Of a DNA stretch of 64,000 bases, positions 125-8,803 are shown piece by piece (within the stretch, counting starts at the first letter, position 1; each line of letters starts with the position of its first letter). The DNA is from an uncultured Lachnospiraceae bacterium. GTDB lineage: Bacteria > Bacillota > Clostridia > Lachnospirales > Lachnospiraceae. Location of the stretch: the NCBI GenBank assembly GCA_950097145.1, contig CATNCF010000014.1:1-64000 (forward strand), written 5' to 3'. The notes beneath the pieces were generated by a model. The model made no database searches and was not told where the DNA came from. It was given only the letters and a program-made list of their open reading frames with translations. The translations under genes and the position numbers were made by a program.

Positions 125-200
125 TACTACGACAAAAAGAAAAAATGCGGGGAAGCCATTACCGCATTGGAAGAAAAACGGGCCCAGGCCCAGAAATCCT
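125..200 (+). pseudogene. Displaced fragment of the tape-measure gene
   Basis: Bases 125-200 align without gaps to 5591-5666 inside the tape-measure gene, and the last 45 bases (156-200) are identical. Homology stops abruptly at both ends, and the reading frame here runs into unrelated sequence and closes after about 75 codons. It is best read as a scrap left by recombination or by an interrupted second tape-measure copy lying to the left of the window. It is not a functional gene. Confidence 0.65.
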
Positions 201-311
201 CTCTTACCACACAGTTAAAATCCCCTCAATCCCTTATAAAACCTGGTTTCCAGCCTGTTTTTATGACTACATATATACAATATAGGAGAAAACCCTTTAC
301 CCAGAAAATTC

Positions 312-396: not shown

Positions 397-1485
397 ATGA
401 ACAATGATAACGAAGAAAACAACAACGGAACGCAAAATGACGCCCTGATGGAAGAACTTTCTTCCCTGGCAGATTACTATTTTCCAGATGGGATATTCCT
501 CAAAGGCATAGAAAATCTTGCGCAGATGAAGGACAACGTCCTGGAATTAGACAACGCCCTGATGGAACTTGCAAAGGTTTCTGACCTTTCTGCCTCAGAG
601 CTGAAACACGTCACAGAAGAAGCTTTCCGTCTGGGGGAAGCCGCAGGAAGAGCCGGAACCGATGTGCTCTCCTATATCGCCTCGGCAGAGAAAGCCGGAT
701 ACGGCATGCAGGAATCCCTGACGCTGGCAGAAGAAGCCTTAAAGATGAGCAGTCTCTCCTCCGGCATAGACAGCGCCGAAGCCGCTGTGGAACACATGAA
801 GGCAGTCCTGGACGGCTTTGGGAAAAACACGGGCTTTGCGTCCACTATTAATGACGCCATCACTGGAATTTCCCAAACAGGGGCTGTGGATTTCGACACC
901 CTGGCAGAAGGGGCGTCAAGGCTTGCCGGGGCAGCCGGGACGGCGGGCATGTCCCTGGAAGAAATGCTGGGGCTCCTCTCCGGGGCTTATGAGATCCTGG
1001 GGGATATGGAACAGACAGCAGGCGGGGAGTCCGCCATTTTCTCAAATCTAAAAGAAACTTATGGGGACGCCAGGAATGTTTATGATATCCTGGAAGAATT
1101 AAGTTCCGTCTGGAGCGCCATGGACACTCCTTCCCGGGAAGCATTTGCCGCCTCCACAGTGGGGGAAGGACAGAAAGAAGTCTTTGCCGCCCTGATGGAC
1201 AACTGGAAAGGCGTGGAATCCGCTGTCTCTTCCGCTTCTAACAGCTTCGGCGCCGCGGACGCCGCCAACGCTGTTTACCTGGATTCTATTGCTGGCAAAA
1301 CAGCGGCTTTCCAGAACCAGGTGGAACAGCTTTCCAATTCCATCCTAGATTCCGGCCTGTTAAAATTCTTTCTGGAACTGGGAACCAAAGGCGCAGGGGC
1401 GCTTGATACAGTTATTAATAAATTAGGGGCCTTCTCCACACTCTCCGCTGCTGGCGCAGGCTACCTGAGCACAAAAGGTGTCGGT
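397..1485 (+). CDS. Phage tail tape measure protein, exon 1
   Basis: This exon encodes the N-terminal 363 residues of the tail-length ruler of a long-tailed phage. The region around residues 25-330 matches the TP901-type tape-measure core: Ala/Gly-rich helices with the typical pattern of testing many aggregated residues and a final Gly/Ala-rich segment. The start ATG at 397 is preceded by AAGGAGG at 383-389; an earlier in-frame ATG at 355 has no such site. The frame would close at TGA 1486-1488, but that stop is the first triplet of a group I intron. Splicing after GGT at 1483-1485 joins it in frame to exon 2 at 3014. If not spliced, translation gives a 363-residue truncated protein. Confidence 0.88.
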
Positions 1486-1880
1486 TGAAGAATTATGTAG
1501 GCTCATGTTTTTCCACAAACTCTGAGTAAGCCGACTGCCGGCATTCCCGCGAGGGATTGAATGACCTGTGATGATACAGTAAGCCGGCATATCCATATGT
1601 CCAGGCTGGCAGATGAAAATGCCAGAGCAAATGATGGAGCCTGTACCCGCCGTACAGGAAAAAACGTCAGATATGGCGTACCTCTGCATATGTACGCTTC
1701 CCTAGTCATTAGGGGACGGGAAACTCTGAAAATACTTCAATGGGCTATCAGACAATCCGCAGGTGACAGTCACAGACTAACCTCATCGACCACATAGACG
1801 GCTGTGGAATCTCCGCAGTAAGATAGAGTCAAAACTAGCTCCCTGCATATGAGTGAAAATGACAATATGCAGCCACAAAC
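1486..1880 (+). ncRNA. Group I intron ribozyme core
   Basis: Visible elements are the internal guide (1524-1535), the P4/P5 region with GACGGGAAAC (1715-1724), P5 TCTGA 1725-1729 with TCAGA 1748-1752, and a Q-like segment around AATCCGCAGG (1754-1763). The R motif CACAGACTAA (1771-1780) matches the Tetrahymena R element, and the S motif AAGATAGAGTC (1820-1830) is close to the consensus AAGATATAGTC. GACT (1775-1778) and AGTC (1827-1830) can form P7. A P9-type hairpin follows (arms CTGCATAT and ATATGCAG). Several extra peripheral hairpins lie between P2 and P4. P3 was not resolved by eye. Confidence 0.85.
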
Positions 1881-1912
1881 ACGATAACCAAAACTGCCGC
1901 TGTCCGCGCAAA

Positions 1913-2407
1913 TCAGAAATCTGACCCGCAGTTCCCGCAGTGCCACTGCTGCCTTCGCTTATTTCCGAAAACGCCGAACAACGCTGTGTTCCATGCCTTG
2001 GATATTCCTGAGATTTTCCGGGTGTTCTTTGAATGGCAGTAAGGGCATTTCACCACGATAGGGCTCCTTCCTCCATTCCTGTCCCTTTCGGCTTCTGCAA
2101 GGAGATCCTCATACTGTATCGGTACATAATTGACCCGCTTGTTATACGCCTCCTGATCAAACCGGGGATCTGCTTTACGGGCTGGGTCATCCAGAAATGC
2201 CTGTCTTTCCTCTGTTGTTATTTTTCCTGTCCCAATACGTTCATACTTGGTATGTATTCCTAAGTTTATATAACATTCTGAACATTCTCCTGGACCTAAG
2301 TCAAAATCTTTAAATGCTTCATCATTTTTAGGCGGAATAAAATTAGGGACACCAGTAGTATGCAGACACTTCGGACAATAAAATTCATCAAATCCTTTCT
2401 CTGACAT
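1913..2407 (-). CDS. Double zinc-ribbon protein (intron cargo, copy 2)
   Basis: This 164-residue protein has an N-terminal ribbon (CPKC near residue 12, then CSEC) and a C-terminal ribbon (CPYC ... CGNC near the end, final residues GSDF). A charged middle segment contains DPARK and DPRFDQEAYN. The C-terminal ribbon type is common in small proteins of Firmicutes and their phages, but its role is unknown. The start was placed at the ATG preceded by GAGG, nine codons inside the longest frame, because the paralogue starts at the same residue. It is transcribed after its paralogue, 61 nt downstream, inside the group I intron and antisense to the tape measure. No nuclease motif (HNH, GIY-YIG, LAGLIDADG) is visible. 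Confidence 0.75.
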   Translation of the reverse strand: MSEKGFDEFYCPKCLHTTGVPNFIPPKNDEAFKDFDLGPGECSECYINLGIHTKYERIGTGKITTEERQAFLDDPARKADPRFDQEAYNKRVNYVPIQYEDLLAEAERDRNGGRSPIVVKCPYCHSKNTRKISGISKAWNTALFGVFGNKRRQQWHCGNCGSDF

Positions 2408-2468
2408 AGTTATACCTCGCTTTCTAAAAGACATAGACTACAAGCAAAGCTGCCGCTGTCCGCGCAAA

Positions 2469-2948
2469 TCAGAAATCTGACCCGCAGTTCCCGCAGTGCC
2501 ACTGCTGCCTTCGCTTATTTCCGAAAACGCCGAACAACGCTGTATTCCATGCCTTGGATATTCCTGAGATTTTCCGGGTGTTCTTTGAATGGCAGTAAGG
2601 GCATTTCACCACGACAGGGCTCCTTCCTCCATTCCTGTCCCTTTGTGCCTCTGCTAGGAGATCTTCATACTCAATAGGTACATGATTTACCCGATTATTA
2701 TACGCCTCCTGATCAAAACGGGGATCCTTTTTGCGAGCCGGATCATCCAGAAATGCCTGTCTTTCAGCTATTGTAATTTTTCCTGTCCCGATACGCTCAT
2801 ACCTTGTATGAATCCCTGAATATAAATAACACTTTATACATTCCCCAGCCTTTATATCCATATCTTCACCATCGGGAATATAATCTGGAACACCGGTAGT
2901 ATGAAGACATTTGGGGCAGTAAAATTCATCAAATCCTTTCTCTGACAT
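2469..2948 (-). CDS. Double zinc-ribbon protein (intron cargo, copy 1)
   Basis: This 159-residue paralogue of the neighbouring gene has the same layout: N-terminal ribbon CPKC ... CIKC, a charged linker, and C-terminal ribbon CPYC ... CGNC. It is the promoter-proximal copy. A consensus-like promoter at 2978-3006 and GAGG before the ATG support real expression on the - strand. Four CxxC pairs imply zinc binding, and DNA or RNA contact is plausible but unproven. Lying wholly inside the intron, it should be removed from the mature tape-measure message while being expressed independently. Function is unknown; a homing, regulatory or superinfection role is only inference. Confidence 0.78.
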   Translation of the reverse strand: MSEKGFDEFYCPKCLHTTGVPDYIPDGEDMDIKAGECIKCYLYSGIHTRYERIGTGKITIAERQAFLDDPARKKDPRFDQEAYNNRVNHVPIEYEDLLAEAQRDRNGGRSPVVVKCPYCHSKNTRKISGISKAWNTALFGVFGNKRRQQWHCGNCGSDF

Positions 2949-2977
2949 AGTTATACCTCACTTTCCTCTTTGTTCTT

Positions 2978-3006
2978 ATTATACGCATTCTTTTTCTGCA
3001 ATGCAA
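2978..3006 (-). promoter_or_regulatory. Promoter of the intron cargo genes
   Basis: On the - strand: -35 TTGCAT (3001-3006), 17-bp spacer, -10 TATAAT (2978-2983). It lies entirely within the last 36 bases of the intron, 7 bases from the 3' splice site, so the cargo carries its own promoter. Confidence 0.7.
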
Positions 3007-3013
3007 CCGTTTG

Positions 3014-6000
3014 TTACTCAGAACCAAACAGGATGAAGATGGAAATGCTTCTGGAATTATTTCTATGTTTACAGACCGTAAGTTTCAACAGCAGAAAGCA
3101 CAGACGCAGCTTATGGATTTCAATGAGCAATCCCAAAAGGATACGCTTGCTTTACAAAATTTTATGAGCAAAATAAATCAAAACTATTCCATCCAGGAAG
3201 CCCTATCCCTTTCCATGAACGGAGCCTCAGAAGCCGCCACCCGGCACGCTGTGGAAATGGGCGGGGCTTCCAACACCCTGGAAACCTTCTCCCAGAAGCA
3301 GAATGAAGTGCGCAAGGGATTACAGGCCAATGCAGACAGCTTCTCTGCTGCATCTATGAAAGGCAAAGCTTATAACATGCTCCTGCAGGGGCTCTCCATG
3401 GCAGGAAACATGCTGGTCTTTGCCGCCGTTTCCAAAGGGATTGAGCTGGCCGCCACCGCTATTGACAACCACATACACCGGGTAGAATACGCCAAAGAAA
3501 GCCTAGAAGAGACAAAAGAAGGCTTCAGCTCCATTACTTCCGAACTGGACTCCCTCAACGCAGAACTGGAAACCCAGCAGGAAAGAATTAATGAACTGTC
3601 CGCCAGAAAAAATTTGACCTATATGGAAAAAGGCGAGTTGGAAAAACTCAAGGAAGCAACAAAAGAACTGGAACGCCAGATAGTGATTAAAAACCAGGAA
3701 GCGGCAATTCAAGCTAACAAACTGGCAAGAGAAAACAAACATACATTTGATTTAGAATACAATGACGATTCCTTCAAAATGAAAGACGTCCAGGAGCTGA
3801 TCACATCTGGAAAATATGAGGATGAAAACGGCCTTCTCCGCCTGGAGGAAGAAGGCATTGAGGGCACTGCCGCCGCCCTGATGAAAATGCAGGAGGCATA
3901 TAAACAGGCAGAAGCTGAGCATAACAATATAGCCATGGAACAAGCGCAGGATTCCATCCAGTATTACAAGGATCTGCTGGTTGGGGATCTTTCCAATCTC
4001 CAGAATTACTGGAACACCCTCAACGAAATCATGGACTTCCGGGATCTGACGGCAGATGAGCTGGCGTTCTATGATAACCTGGAACAGGGGATGAAACTGA
4101 TCAGCAGTTTTACAGATTCCAATGGCTGGAATGCCCTGGAAATCGATAGTATTTTTGATACCGAAGGCATAGAGATCACAAAAGAAGAATTAGTCTCATT
4201 AGCCAAGGATGGAACATTAGATGAAGCCACCATCTCCAATTACAAAAATCTAGTCAAGGCTATTGAAGAAAGCGACTTGATTTTTGATGACACATCCAAT
4301 AGCATTGCCGCCTTTCTGGAAGAAATTGCAGCCCTGGCAGATAAATGTGAAGAATCCCTGGAGGTAGATCTAACAACAGACCCCCTCTCCAAAACACGCA
4401 CAAAACTTGCCGAAGCAGGCGCAGACCTGGACAAGCTCTCCGGCTCCTATCAGGAATTTAAAGAGCTTGGATATGTAACTGCCCAAAGCCTGGAATCGCT
4501 TCCTGATGTCTTCCAGGATCTGGAAGGCTTTGACCTGTTTGCAGAAACTGCCGGGAATCCGAGCCAGGGCGTAGAACAAATACAGGAAGCATTCAACGAG
4601 CTCACCGCCCAATACCTGCTCTCAAAGGATACTCTGACCGGCCTGTTCAACGCTTCTGAAAGCGAAGTCCAGTCCTATATTGCAAATTTAAAGCAGATGG
4701 GGATCCAGAATGCCGAAGAGCTTGTAAACCAGGTCCGCTCCCTTCCAGCAGATATCCCAATCCTTAACAATGCGGAAGAAGAATACTTCAATTACCTGGA
4801 GCACAAAAAGGGGTATGACGCGGACTACATAAACAGCATTTATTCCAAAAACAGTCTCCTGCTTGCCGCATTAGGCGCGCCATACCAGGCGGATTATTAC
4901 AACTGGCTTGACATGCTGTCCAAAAAGGCGGAGGCCTATAATGCCTTTGTGAATGCAATTAAGGCATCCCAGTCCATGAGCTTCAGCGCCCCTTATTCTG
5001 CATATGGAACGGCCCAGGAAATCCTGAGGGAATCCAACGGGAAAAAACCTGCCGATTATTATGTTAAAAATTACTCGCCATTCGGCATCCCAAAAAATGA
5101 GGTTCTCTCCTCCTATACCACTGCTCAGATTAATAGCGCCAGAAATCTAGTGGATGCAACTGAAGCTGCAAGCAAAGCTAAGAATGACGTATCCCTGGAT
5201 TTATCCCCCATCAGCCTTGACTTTGGCTCAAATTCCTCCCCCATTGGAGGCGGCGGTTCCGGCTCTGCGGCTTCTGCCCCCGCCCCCACTCCCCAGACCT
5301 ACGACTGGATTGAGAAAAAGCTCTCCGCCATTGCAGACCAGACTGATCGGGCCGGCAAAGCATTTGACAAAGCTTTTTTCCTAAGCTCCTCCAGGAAAAA
5401 GTTCCATGCGTACCTCTCCCAGATCAGCGCAGATCTTAACGCCAACCAGACTGCCGCTGCTGTCTATCAGGAGAAAATGAACGCCGTCGGCCTGTCAGAC
5501 ACATGGATTGACAAAATCCAGAACGGCAGCTTCTCCATCCAGGACATTTCTGACGAAACACTCAAAAACCAGATTTCAGAATATGAAAACTACTACGATA
5601 AAAAGAAGAAATGTGAGGAATCCATTACCGCATTGGAAGAAAAACGGGCCCAGGCCCAGAAATCCTATGCAGACAAAATCATTGCCGCCCATGACAGGGA
5701 AATCAGCAAAATTGAAAAAAAGATTTCCCGCAAAAAAGCTTTGGCCAGCCTGAAAGAAGTATTTGGCTTTTCTGCCTCTGGCAAGGACTATAAAAACCAG
5801 CAGAGCGATTCTAATTCAGAACTGTCGAAATTGAGAAAGCAGGATGAAAGCCTGAAAAAGCTTCAGAAAACCACGGTCAAAGGCAGCGAAGCCTGGAACG
5901 CCTACCAGGATCAGATCAAAAAAAATAAAGAGAAAACCCAGGAACTCACCCAATCCATTGCAGAGCTGGCTGTTAAAATGGCGGGACTTCCCACAGAACG

Positions 6001-8803
6001 GCTAAATAAATACCTGGAAAAAAATAAAGAGAAACAGGAACTCTACGAAGCTAAGATTGCAGCCAGCGGCAGCACAAAAAACAAAAATACATGGATCGGA
6101 AATCAGATAACTCTTGTAAAACGAAACCAGAATAAAACACAGTCTGCGGCCGAAATTACCTCCAAAAACTTAGAAACGTCCAAATCAAAATTTACTGCTG
6201 CTAAGAACAAAGATAAAAAGAAGCAGCCGAAATCTGGTAAGAAACAGGCAGACAATTATTATAAGAAAATACAGGCGTATACTAAGAAAAACAAGGAGAT
6301 TCCAGCCAGCCTGATCACCAAACTCACCAACGCTGGAATGAACCAGTTAGCAGCAGCAGCCGCCAACTATAACGCGAACCTTGCAGCAAATGAAACTGCA
6401 CAGGCAGCGGCAGAGCTGGCAGCCCAGACTTCTCAAAAAGAAATCTCAGAACTGGCCCTCAAACAGTTCCAGAATACCAAAGGCTCCTATGAGCAGAAAC
6501 AGACGGATATCAGCCGCCGTTCCGAATATATCTCTTCCTCCGTCAGCCGTTCCGAAGCCCAGGGGCGTCCTGCGGACCGGAGCTACTATGACGCGCTCAT
6601 CTCCCTGGAACAGCAAAACCAGAAAAGCCTTGCCAAGGAGCGCAATAAATTGCAGAAAACACTAAATTCCTTAGCAGCCTCTGGAAAAATACGGGAATTT
6701 TCAGAAGAATGGCTGGAAATGACAGACAGCATTTACCAGGTGGACCAGGCATTATTACAGTCCAAAGAAACATTATTAGAATACCAGAACCAGCTAAAGC
6801 AGATTGATTTCGATCATTTCGGCTATCTTCAGGAACAGATCGGACGGCTCACCCAGGAAGCAGACTTTTATATCAATGTCATGTCGGACAAACCACTTAC
6901 CAATGAAACCGGACTGACCCAACACGGAACCGCCACACTGGGGCTGCATTACCAGAAATCAGAAATCTACCAGAATCAGGCGGCACAATATGGAAAAGAA
7001 ATTGACAAGCTGAATAAGGCGCTTTCCAAAGATCCCACCAACACTACACTGATTTCCCAACTCCAGCAGTACCAGGATATGCAAAAAGAATGCATCCAAA
7101 ACGCCCAGAGTGAAAAACAGGCCATTGCCGATCTGGTACAGCAGGGCTATCAGGCGCTGATTGATTCCCTTGGCAAATCCATCAGCAAATACAAAGAACT
7201 TCTGCAAAACGCCAAAAACGCCCACGAATACCAGAAAAATATTTCCCAGCAGACCGATAACATCAGCGCCCTGAAAAAACAGATCAACGCCTACTCTTCC
7301 ATGACCGGAAGCGAAGAAACTTCAGCAAAGCTCCAGCAGCTTATGAAAGAACTGGATGAGGCCGAACGCAGTCTGGATGAGACGATGTATGAGAAATATC
7401 TCTCCGACACCCAGGACGCCATGGACAACATGCTGGACAGCCTGGAAGACTTCCTCAGCGGACTGTCCCAGGAAACCGACATGCTGATTCAAAGCGGAAT
7501 TGAAATGGTAACCGGCAGTACAGACGCTATTTCTTCTACCCTCTTTGAGCTTTCTGAGGAATACCATACCTCACTCTCCTCCGCCATGGCCGCTTCCTGG
7601 GGAAGCTACGGTTCTGCCGCCGGAGGTGTGGACGCCATCATCAGCAGTTTCCAGAACCTGCTGACTGTCACTGACCAGAAGAACGATGAACAGGCATTCC
7701 AGGACGCCTCCAGTATTTATCAAAACTACAAATCCTACAACAAAGACCTTGCAAATGCCAAGAAGGAAAAAAGCGATCTTAAGAAAAAACGCGATAAGGC
7801 CAAAGAACAGCAAGAAAAAGCCAAAAAGAAACTGGACAAAGCCAAAAGGAAAGGAAAAAATTCCAAAGAATACAAAAAGGCTGAGAAAAACTGGAAGGAC
7901 GCTAAAAAGGAATTTGACACTCTGGACAAGAAATACAAGGATTCCGGGCAAAGAGTCAACACGCTAAAAGCACAGCAGCAGGCCGCAAAAGATTCTGACA
8001 AGAGTACCATACAGAACTTCCTTTCTGCCATTGCCGATAAAACGCCTGCCAAAAATTCCAGCAGCATGGACGCTTTAGACAACGCCGTTTTAAAAATTAC
8101 CGGAGGTTATATCACCGACGCCAACCGTAAGCAGATTCTAAGCCTGTTGGGCGCTGCCAATGCAGATCAGGCAGTCAATATCCTCAAAAACCTGGGCCTT
8201 GCACAAGACGGAACTTCCGGAAACAGCCCCGCGCCAGCACCCGGCGGCAAATCTCCTGCATCTGGGACATCTAAAAAGAAAAAGTCTTCCAAAAAGAGCA
8301 AGAAAAAGTCTTCCAAAAGCAGTAAAAAGAAGTCTTCCAAAAAGAAAAATACAGACAAAAACAAGAAGAAATCCAAGGGCGGCGGAAATCCGAATACAAA
8401 AACAAAGTCAGACAATATCAAATATATCCGCTTGAGAAACCTGATGAAAGATCCTTCCTTGAATCAGCCGGAGAAAGACCAGATCCCTGGACGCCAGGCT
8501 GCAGAAGGACTGAATTTTGACGATATTTTCTGGAATAGCCAGAATCACAACAATTCTATGTTCAGCCGTCTTTCTCTGAAAGACACCATTTTAAATCAGA
8601 ACCCTTCCAGAATTTCCGACGCCGGAAATCTGTCCATTATCACCGGGGATCTGATTCTGCCGGATGTTACCGATCCCAGCGAATTTGCCAGTGGCATGGT
8701 AAATGCGCTGAAAAATGATCCTACCGTCCAAAGAGCCCTGGGAACCCTGGTAAACACCAGTCTCACCAGCGGCAATTCTCTCAGCACACAAAAATTTATT
8801 TAA
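3014..8803 (+). CDS. Phage tail tape measure protein, exon 2
   Basis: This encodes about 1,929 residues continuing the tape measure after intron splicing; the spliced product is about 2,292 residues, implying a long tail. It has a short hydrophobic stretch near residues 130-150 (MLVFAAVSKGIELAATAI), then very long coiled-coil segments rich in Gln, Lys, Glu and Ala. A Gly/Ser/Pro linker follows at about nt 5230-5300, then more coiled coil. A strongly basic Lys/Ser tract lies at about nt 8270-8380, before a C-terminal domain. A TTG at 3011 could start an unspliced frame, but it has no ribosome site, which supports translation through the splice junction. AGGAGG near the end belongs to the next gene. 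Confidence 0.88.
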   Translation, partial: LLRTKQDEDGNASGIISMFTDRKFQQQKAQTQLMDFNEQSQKDTLALQNFMSKINQNYSIQEALSLSMNGASEAATRHAVEMGGASNTLETFSQKQNEVRKGLQANADSFSAASMKGKAYNMLLQGLSMAGNMLVFAAVSKGIELAATAIDNHIHRVEYAKESLEETKEGFSSITSELDSLNAELETQQERINELSARKNLTYMEKGELEKLKEATKELERQIVIKNQEAAIQANKLARENKHTFDLEYNDDSFKMKDVQELITSGKYEDENGLLRLEEEGIEGTAAALMKMQEAYKQAEAEHNNIAMEQAQDSIQYYKDLLVGDLSNLQNYWNTLNEIMDFRDLTADELAFYDNLEQGMKLISSFTDSNGWNALEIDSIFDTEGIEITKEELVSLAKDGTLDEATISNYKNLVKAIEESDLIFDDTSNSIAAFLEEIAALADKCEESLEVDLTTDPLSKTRTKLAEAGADLDKLSGSYQEFKELGYVTAQSLESLPDVFQDLEGFDLFAETAGNPSQGVEQIQEAFNELTAQYLLSKDTLTGLFNASESEVQSYIANLKQMGIQNAEELVNQVRSLPADIPILNNAEEEYFNYLEHKKGYDADYINSIYSKNSLLLAALGAPYQADYYNWLDMLSKKAEAYNAFVNAIKASQSMSFSAPYSAYGTAQEILRESNGKKPADYYVKNYSPFGIPKNEVLSSYTTAQINSARNLVDATEAASKAKNDVSLDLSPISLDFGSNSSPIGGGGSGSAASAPAPTPQTYDWIEKKLSAIADQTDRAGKAFDKAFFLSSSRKKFHAYLSQISADLNANQTAAAVYQEKMNAVGLSDTWIDKIQNGSFSIQDISDETLKNQISEYENYYDKKKKCEESITALEEKRAQAQKSYADKIIAAHDREISKIEKKISRKKALASLKEVFGFSASGKDYKNQQSDSNSELSKLRKQDESLKKLQKTTVKGSEAWNAYQDQIKKNKEKTQELTQSIAELAVKMAGLPTERLNKYLEKNKEKQELYEAKIAASGSTKNKNTWIGNQITLVKRNQNKTQSAAEITSKNLETSKSKFTAAKNKDKKKQPKSGKKQADNYYKKIQAYTKKNKEIPASLITKLTNAGMNQLAAAAANYNANLAANETAQAAAELAAQTSQKEISELALKQFQNTKGSYEQKQTDISRRSEYISSSVSRSEAQGRPADRSYYDALISLEQQNQKSLAKERNKLQKTLNSLAASGKIREFSEEWLEMTDSIYQVDQALLQSKETLLEYQNQLKQIDFDHFGYLQEQIGRLTQEADFYINVMSDKPLTNETGLTQHGTATLGLHYQKSEIYQNQAAQYGKEIDKLNKALSKDPTNTTLISQLQQYQDMQKECIQNAQSEKQAIADLVQQGYQALIDSLGKSISKYKELLQNAKNAHEYQKNISQQTDNISALKKQINAYSSMTGSEETSAKLQQLMKELDEAERSLDETMYEKYLSDTQDAMDNMLDSLEDFLSGLSQETDMLIQSGIEMVTGSTDAISSTLFELSEEYHTSLSSAMAASWGSYGSAAGGVDAIISSFQNLLTVTDQKNDEQAFQDASSIYQNYKSYNKDLANAKKEKSDLKKKRDKAKEQQEKAKKKLDKAKRKGKNSKEYKKAEKNWKDAKKEFDTLDKKYKDSGQRVNTLKAQQQAAKDSDKSTIQNFLSAIADKTPAKNSSSMDALDNAVLKITGGYITDANRKQILSLLGAANADQAVNILKNLGLAQDGTSGNSPAPAPGGKSPASGTSKKKKSSKKSKKKSSKSSKKKSSKKKNTDKNKKKSKGGGNPNTKTKSDNIKYIRLRNLMKDPSLNQPEKDQIPGRQAAEGLNFDDIFWNSQNHNNSMFSRLSLKDTILNQNPSRISDAGNLSIITGDLILPDVTDPSEFASGMVNALKNDPTVQRALGTLVNTSLTSGNSLSTQKFI

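Follow-up and report, generated by a model that had tools for sequence, protein, structure and literature searches.

What interrupts the tape-measure protein (TMP) gene at the end of a contig from an uncultured Lachnospiraceae bacterium (CATNCF010000014.1, assembly GCA_950097145.1; its first 64,000 nucleotides, referred to as the window), and why does the interruption hold two genes on the opposite strand? In the list of open reading frames, the first TMP frame is open from 397 and meets a stop codon at 1486-1488, whereas a frame in register with it reopens at 3014 and continues to 8803, giving a second open portion of 1929 aa. This reading of the frames confirms the halt at 1486, the restart at 3014, and the in-frame junction of the two exons that had been claimed in the first-pass annotation. 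Tail, glycosyltransferase, and endolysin genes follow 3' of the TMP gene up to 19469, with bacterial-looking genes beyond; the window begins at the contig end, and head genes are absent from it. The features considered here are the following.

125..269, + strand: final part of a further TMP unit (125-200 is a repeat of 5591-5666, and 125-269 corresponds to the end of contig C68, from the same genome)
397..1485, + strand: TMP exon 1 (open frame; matches to PF10145 and tape-measure PHROGs)
1480..1485, + strand: exon strand of P1 (6/6 pairs with 1530-1535)
1486..3013, + strand: group I intron of 1528 nt with final base G (from P1, P10, terminal G, P3, P7, and cross-locus comparison)
1522..1535, + strand: internal guide sequence (P10 strand 1522-1529, P1 strand 1530-1535)
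1665..1668, + strand: 5' strand of P3 (partner 1797-1800, 4/4 pairs)
1785..1794, + strand: R segment, 5' strand of P7 (aligned with other loci; 4/6 pairs with S)
1802..1818, + strand: P8 hairpin (read by eye)
1820..1830, + strand: S segment, J8/7 and 3' strand of P7 (cross-locus core comparison)
1913..2407, - strand: antisense zinc-ribbon gene, copy B (a start at 2434 is possible; the homologous start is 2407)
2469..2948, - strand: antisense zinc-ribbon gene, copy A (from the ORF list and relatives)
2978..3006, - strand: possible antisense promoter (TATAAT 2978-2983, TTGCAT 3001-3006, spacer 17; by eye)
3014..8803, + strand: TMP exon 2 (open frame)
3014..4213, + strand: hypervariable TMP block (exon 2 residues 1-400; extends further in the comparison with two of the four relatives)

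The structural elements are named after the established anatomy of group I introns, with its numbering of P and J segments and its R and S motifs. In the window, GUCGGU at 1480-1485 pairs fully with GCCGAC at 1530-1535, placing a U.G pair at the 5' splice site, and the adjoining guide strand 1522-1529 pairs with 3014-3021 to form a P10 of 8 bp, two more than the six pairs initially counted; base 3013 is a G. Within the core, CGUC at 1665-1668 pairs with GACG at 1797-1800 (4/4) to give P3, and the S motif at 1820-1830 reads AAGAUAGAGUC. The segments, picked by eye, follow one another as P3, R, P3', P8, and S, which is the order of the P3-P7 pseudoknot. The R and S motifs are both present, as first described; P7 has 4/6 pairs in the window, with both mismatches common to locus L100. 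Another candidate for the 5' strand of P7, GACUA at 1775-1779, forms 4/5 pairs with S and is misaligned with the other loci; it is kept as an alternative.

The pairings were then compared across loci. A search of 397 genomes of the window's family with the core DNA returned two matches besides the window's own, both located in TMP genes of other genera that are interrupted at the homologous place. Both ends of the interruption could be placed at 20 loci, at the same protein position throughout, and all 20 introns end in G. Eighteen loci entered the swap test, from which L066, a near copy of L065, was omitted; 14 of their 3' sites came from a search that accepted only sites with a G and with P10 pairing, protein homology choosing among the candidates in some, and four (L073, L075, L092, and L095) from protein homology alone, as did that of L078, which lies outside the 18. 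A G precedes the 3' site in all five loci placed by protein homology alone. The P1 strands vary in concert, for instance, AUCGGU/GCCGAU in L002/L100 and CUCGGU/GCCGAG in L003/L101. Over the 18 loci, the locus's own strands form 94 of 108 pairs in P1 and 99 of 108 in P10, against best values of 86 and 90, respectively, in 100,000 swaps, figures that lean towards the model because pairing was considered when the guide positions were selected. Two loci deviate, L092 having almost no P10 and L078 having an exon that ends in C with an A opposite (by eye). Exon 2 begins with IFK/IFT, VFK/VFN, ILK, QLK, LAQ, or LAT, and with LLR in the window.

The core behaves in the same manner. P3 is complete (4/4) in five loci with five different sequences, their own pairing being reached by 1 of 120 orders. 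P7, counted together with the pair beside the bulge, is complete (6/6) in 16 loci and has 4/6 pairs in the window and L100, a total of 104/108 over 18 loci against at most 95 in 100,000 swaps; the core segments for both statistics were picked by eye, and L076, which the search strings did not locate, was dropped from the P7 count. Covariation across loci therefore backs the intron ends at 1486 and 3013, and, on this comparative evidence, the segment between them represents a group I intron that interrupts the TMP gene of a prophage.

Covariance models gave a different outcome. The RF00028 search that had been proposed as a check on the intron found no match in Rfam 15 in 1380-3120 even at E≤10, and no covariance-model match reached gathering in the window. 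Likewise, no Rfam group I match was obtained for L002, for 20 related loci (at gathering), or for two loci of named phages. As controls, the T4 td and nrdB introns scored 40.3 bits (E 1.1e-7) and 35.7 bits (E 2.8e-6) against RF00028, both below its gathering score of 50; the intron of the window is weaker than either because these reach the model and it does not. Given that RF00028 misses the window, the case for group I rests on comparison, a match to this model being a detection test rather than a defining feature of group I introns. As a side result, gathering scans in Rfam 15 can miss phage group I introns, the two T4 introns falling below the cut-off.

The lack of an Rfam match and the P7 mismatches, together with the truncated TMP unit that probably adjoins this one, would be in keeping with a decayed TMP gene, in which the insertion stays unspliced and the prophage is defective. 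Such decay would hardly leave ends that are exact, in frame, and covarying over 18 loci, a compensatory P3 difference between the window and L100, or an exon 2 that is open throughout, and we regard it as extremely improbable. We infer instead that the intron is spliced from the late transcript, with the exons joined in frame.

The same point in the TMP gene is interrupted again and again. An exon-1 profile built from three interrupted proteins, which accordingly favours interrupted genes, matches 38 of the 397 genomes, and, in the loci fetched from this one profile search, the 5' splice point could be placed in 30 interrupted TMP genes. It falls in a K-N-x-G motif or the like (KGVG in the window; KNFA, KNFD, or KKLG elsewhere), with T as the final exon base in all but L078 and L086, which have C. 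Uninterrupted frames of 1692-2980 aa were found in six cases (G159:C15, G300:C61, G206:C25, G380, G391:C62, and G150), read-through being counted where the exon-1 match reached at least model position 375; four ambiguous genomes (G134, G291, G343, and G046) stand outside these six. One of the six, L080, is an empty site with an unbroken KNVGITQL. With a joined-exon profile, 15 of 381 genomes of the class match, and three of the matches (G498, G470, and G779) cross the junction in open frames. By these counts, the TMP site is an intron hot spot.

A check within the window's own genus, carried out after the model had been made, matched the exon-1 profile in 15 of 29 genomes, the window's included. 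In five of seven same-genus stretches (L187, L188, L189, L190, and L192), the frame enters KNLG or KGLG, and antisense zinc-ribbon ORFs lie ahead of exon 2 in L188, L190, and L191; the second unit of L188 has a P1 of 7 bp and a P10 of 6 bp to an LAQ exon 2. Exon 2 is absent from the stretch of L189, and L193 has a different exon 1 end. A search of viral contigs found neither a relative containing the TMP exons or the zinc-ribbon protein nor one with a core pattern; ten exact matches to a 16-base core string all lie in unrelated sequence and were discarded. Phage records searched with the intron core DNA, and named phages and plasmids compared with the joined exon peptides, gave no match either. 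In one genome (G348:C2; L143 and L084), exon 1 lies at ~323 kb and exon 2 with an antisense zinc-ribbon ORF at ~312 kb, in the same strand order, which may represent a single, very long gap or a pair of broken units.

What the first-pass annotation omitted from an intron whose outline has held is its content, two tandem antisense zinc-ribbon genes of a kind that recurs family-wide at this site. The two ORFs of the window (1913-2434 and 2469-2948) encode proteins that are 86% identical, with DNA repeats of 300 and 91 nt, and the dN/dS of copy B versus copy A is 0.18. The ratio is below 1 in all seven tandem cargo pairs (0.08-0.83), and, judged by it, the cargo is under protein-level constraint. 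Relatives of the window's zinc-ribbon protein occur at 65 places in 31 of the 397 genomes, many matching the C-terminal ribbon only. Profiles of both exons place 45 of the 65 in antisense orientation next to a TMP exon, no more than 4.5 kb away, and a single one in sense orientation; the 45, which include 25 situated between both exons, represent 35 gaps in 24 genomes. The remaining 20 were not found beside a TMP gene, several having other neighbours among the matches listed. In the 22 gaps with a clear exon 2, a count that leaves out L084, where the following frame is not TMP-like, antisense ORFs are present in 21 and zinc-ribbon ORFs in 18, those of L066 and L095 being short or broken. Other cargo comprises a ribbon-and-membrane ORF in L070, a lipoprotein-like ORF in L075, and two membrane-anchored ORFs in L078, and the L101 gap contains no ORF of at least 70 aa. 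Extra sense ORFs carry a RelA/SpoT domain in L077 and a PemK-like domain in L085. The two sense ORFs of L077 (1869-3960) adjoin its antisense zinc-ribbon ORF within the TMP gap, and the RelA/SpoT ORF is also a PADLOC candidate-defence match (PDC-S33). A zinc-ribbon match in Streptococcus phage Javan202, between repressor and integrase, was rejected as too weak (E 9e-3, 24%).

Residence in introns raises the question of whether these proteins serve the intron, by assisting its splicing or its movement. Binding of nucleic acid is within the capacity of zinc ribbons, and PADLOC gives a weak homing-endonuclease match (E 0.0018) for one sense ORF of L077. Yet the antisense genes are not on the intron transcript, L075 and L078 have lipoprotein-like or membrane-anchored ORFs in their place and L101 has none, and a Pfam scan detected no nuclease family in nine cargo proteins from eight loci or in the two of the window, which renders a service to the intron improbable. 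The window cargo has no match in PADLOC.

With no nuclease family detected by Pfam in either ORF, the window's intron might be a mobile group I intron of the ordinary kind from which the homing endonuclease gene has been lost, with the antisense ORFs as passengers that have no tie to the TMP. The ORF-free gap of L101 would suit such a history, as would the TMP introns with HNH genes in other phages, namely, TR-TP1 and ICP1 (PMC10448857). Passengers would not be expected to belong to the same family, antisense, in 35 TMP gaps of 24 genomes, nor to be constrained at the protein level, and we consider this history rather unlikely.

The orientation itself, 45 antisense versus 1 sense, could point to a regulator, transcription against the TMP gene silencing this late gene in the lysogen. 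Silencing, however, needs no conserved proteins, yet dN/dS is 0.08-0.83 in the seven tandem pairs, so that a purely regulatory unit appears very unlikely. Because the TMP transcript cannot give their proteins, the antisense genes need a promoter of their own and would be expressed in the prophage state. The promoter signal, as judged from sequence, is not convincing: an exact TATAAT occurs in 10 of 18 loci, compared with a mean of 2.5 in shuffles and 7 of 18 on the opposite strand.

The intron also marks a boundary within the TMP. Exon 1 windows are 48-96% identical to three relatives, whereas residues 1-400 of exon 2 show 15-36% identity per 100 residues to four relatives, rising to 81% in the windows after residue 400; the variable block thus begins at the intron. 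Across 27 loci (without L095 and L104), similarity of the cargo N-terminal part tracks that of exon 2 residues 1-200 (r 0.38, p 0.0005) but not that of residues 200-400 (r 0.08, p 0.12), and the C-terminal ribbon follows residues 1-200 weakly (r 0.16, p 0.01). For the 15 loci in which both exons are available, the correlation of the N-terminal part is highest with exon 2 residues 1-100 (r 0.35, p 0.0004), with lower, but not nil, values for the exon 1 end (0.22) and the intron core (0.20); full-length cargo correlates with the intron core (r 0.30) and with exon 2 residues 1-100 (r 0.28). In the pair L091/L098, exon 2 is alike (0.61) and the cargo less so (0.26; median 0.17). The correlation of these sequences may reflect matching between cargo and TMP and is also compatible with close linkage.

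TMP units also occur in multiple copies. Contig C68, from the same genome, shares 91% DNA identity with the window up to 1391 and 97% at 5270-5666, with no match between. The two units are probably in tandem because C68 ends with window 125-269 (98.6%), although the assembly is no proof. The one-contig genome G408 contains several TMP units within 38.5 kb, two of which are 95.8% identical over 7.4 kb. In this array (L174/L175, G408:C1:1017000-1055500), some units are truncated or have an internal deletion in exon 1, and upstream tail genes are repeated at 99%.

The overall explanation that we favour, and consider probable, combines a spliced intron with antisense prophage genes, an exchangeable cassette, and a plausible role in exclusion. 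A group I intron occupies a conserved point of the TMP (KNxG|IFK-like) and harbours one to three opposite-strand genes; together with these genes and the following hypervariable TMP block, it would form an exchangeable cassette, sometimes present in tandem copies. The antisense products are most likely accessory proteins of the prophage and may plausibly act in superinfection exclusion, in a manner matched to the neighbouring TMP segment; cargo orientation and the correlation with the TMP block are indirect signs of such a role. More tentatively, and less likely than not, TMP cassettes may be linked pairs of a hypervariable segment and an intronic antisense gene for a factor excluding that TMP type. 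Because the intron would then carry the matched factor inside the very gene that is recognised, recombination would swap factor and TMP together.

A precedent for the target is Ltp of phage TP-J34, a prophage-made exclusion protein reported to act on the TMP (PMC3952083). Ltp is a lipoprotein without a zinc ribbon and is not said there to lie within a TMP gene, so that its link to the window cargo is one of analogy. The defence nuclease SNIPE recognises diverse TMPs as a defence principle (PMC13190303); it is a membrane nuclease, unlike the window cargo, and is likened to it by principle rather than by sequence.

The initial opinion that a TMP host is unusual for a group I intron is contradicted by vibriophage ICP1, the TMP gene of which has three introns with splicing demonstrated by RNA-seq and RT-PCR, the TMP being called another frequently interrupted gene (PMC10448857). 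ICP1 differs in having HNH homing endonuclease genes and three introns, compared with antisense zinc-ribbon genes and one site here. Opposite-strand genes within group I introns are known from nuclear rDNA of Didymium, a eukaryote, in which the antisense gene is a homing endonuclease (PMC9548176). Each element has thus been described singly: group I introns as such, their occurrence in TMP genes (PMC10448857), and antisense ORFs within introns (PMC9548176). Their combination, a TMP hot spot with recurrent non-endonuclease antisense cargo bordering a variable block, did not turn up in searches of an open-access library, from which absence from print does not follow. Group I introns are usually regarded as selfish, with a homing endonuclease as their cargo where they have any, whereas those described here, located at a single site of an essential tail gene, repeatedly hold other, antisense genes and border a hypervariable segment. 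If the proposed explanation is true, introns can be safe harbours for prophage genes, and the loci provide candidate exclusion factors that sit next to their likely targets. A further caution is that, in prophages of this type, annotation may present a TMP gene as broken or as a pair of genes.

Related arrangements appear in named phages. In Thomasclavelia phage TR-TP1 (PQ571309), a TMP relative is in two parts, as in the window, but with a sense HNH gene between the parts and the interruption elsewhere in the TMP (L105, 6422-11592); a group I-like core is readable by eye, with no Rfam match. In Clostridioides phage LIBA6276 (L106, 5996-13865), a TMP-like query matches two adjoining CDS ~320 nt apart, and the gap, at another place in the TMP gene, is possibly a small intron without an ORF. 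Prophage phi2 of Clostridium clostridioforme LM41 is reported to have two TMP ORFs and to be released (PMC11318856), and it may be a comparable case. Finally, in a phage contig from human faeces (MT837120.1, L108), a TMP frame of 1368 aa is followed by antisense ORFs, the last of which encodes a zinc ribbon resembling the window cargo.
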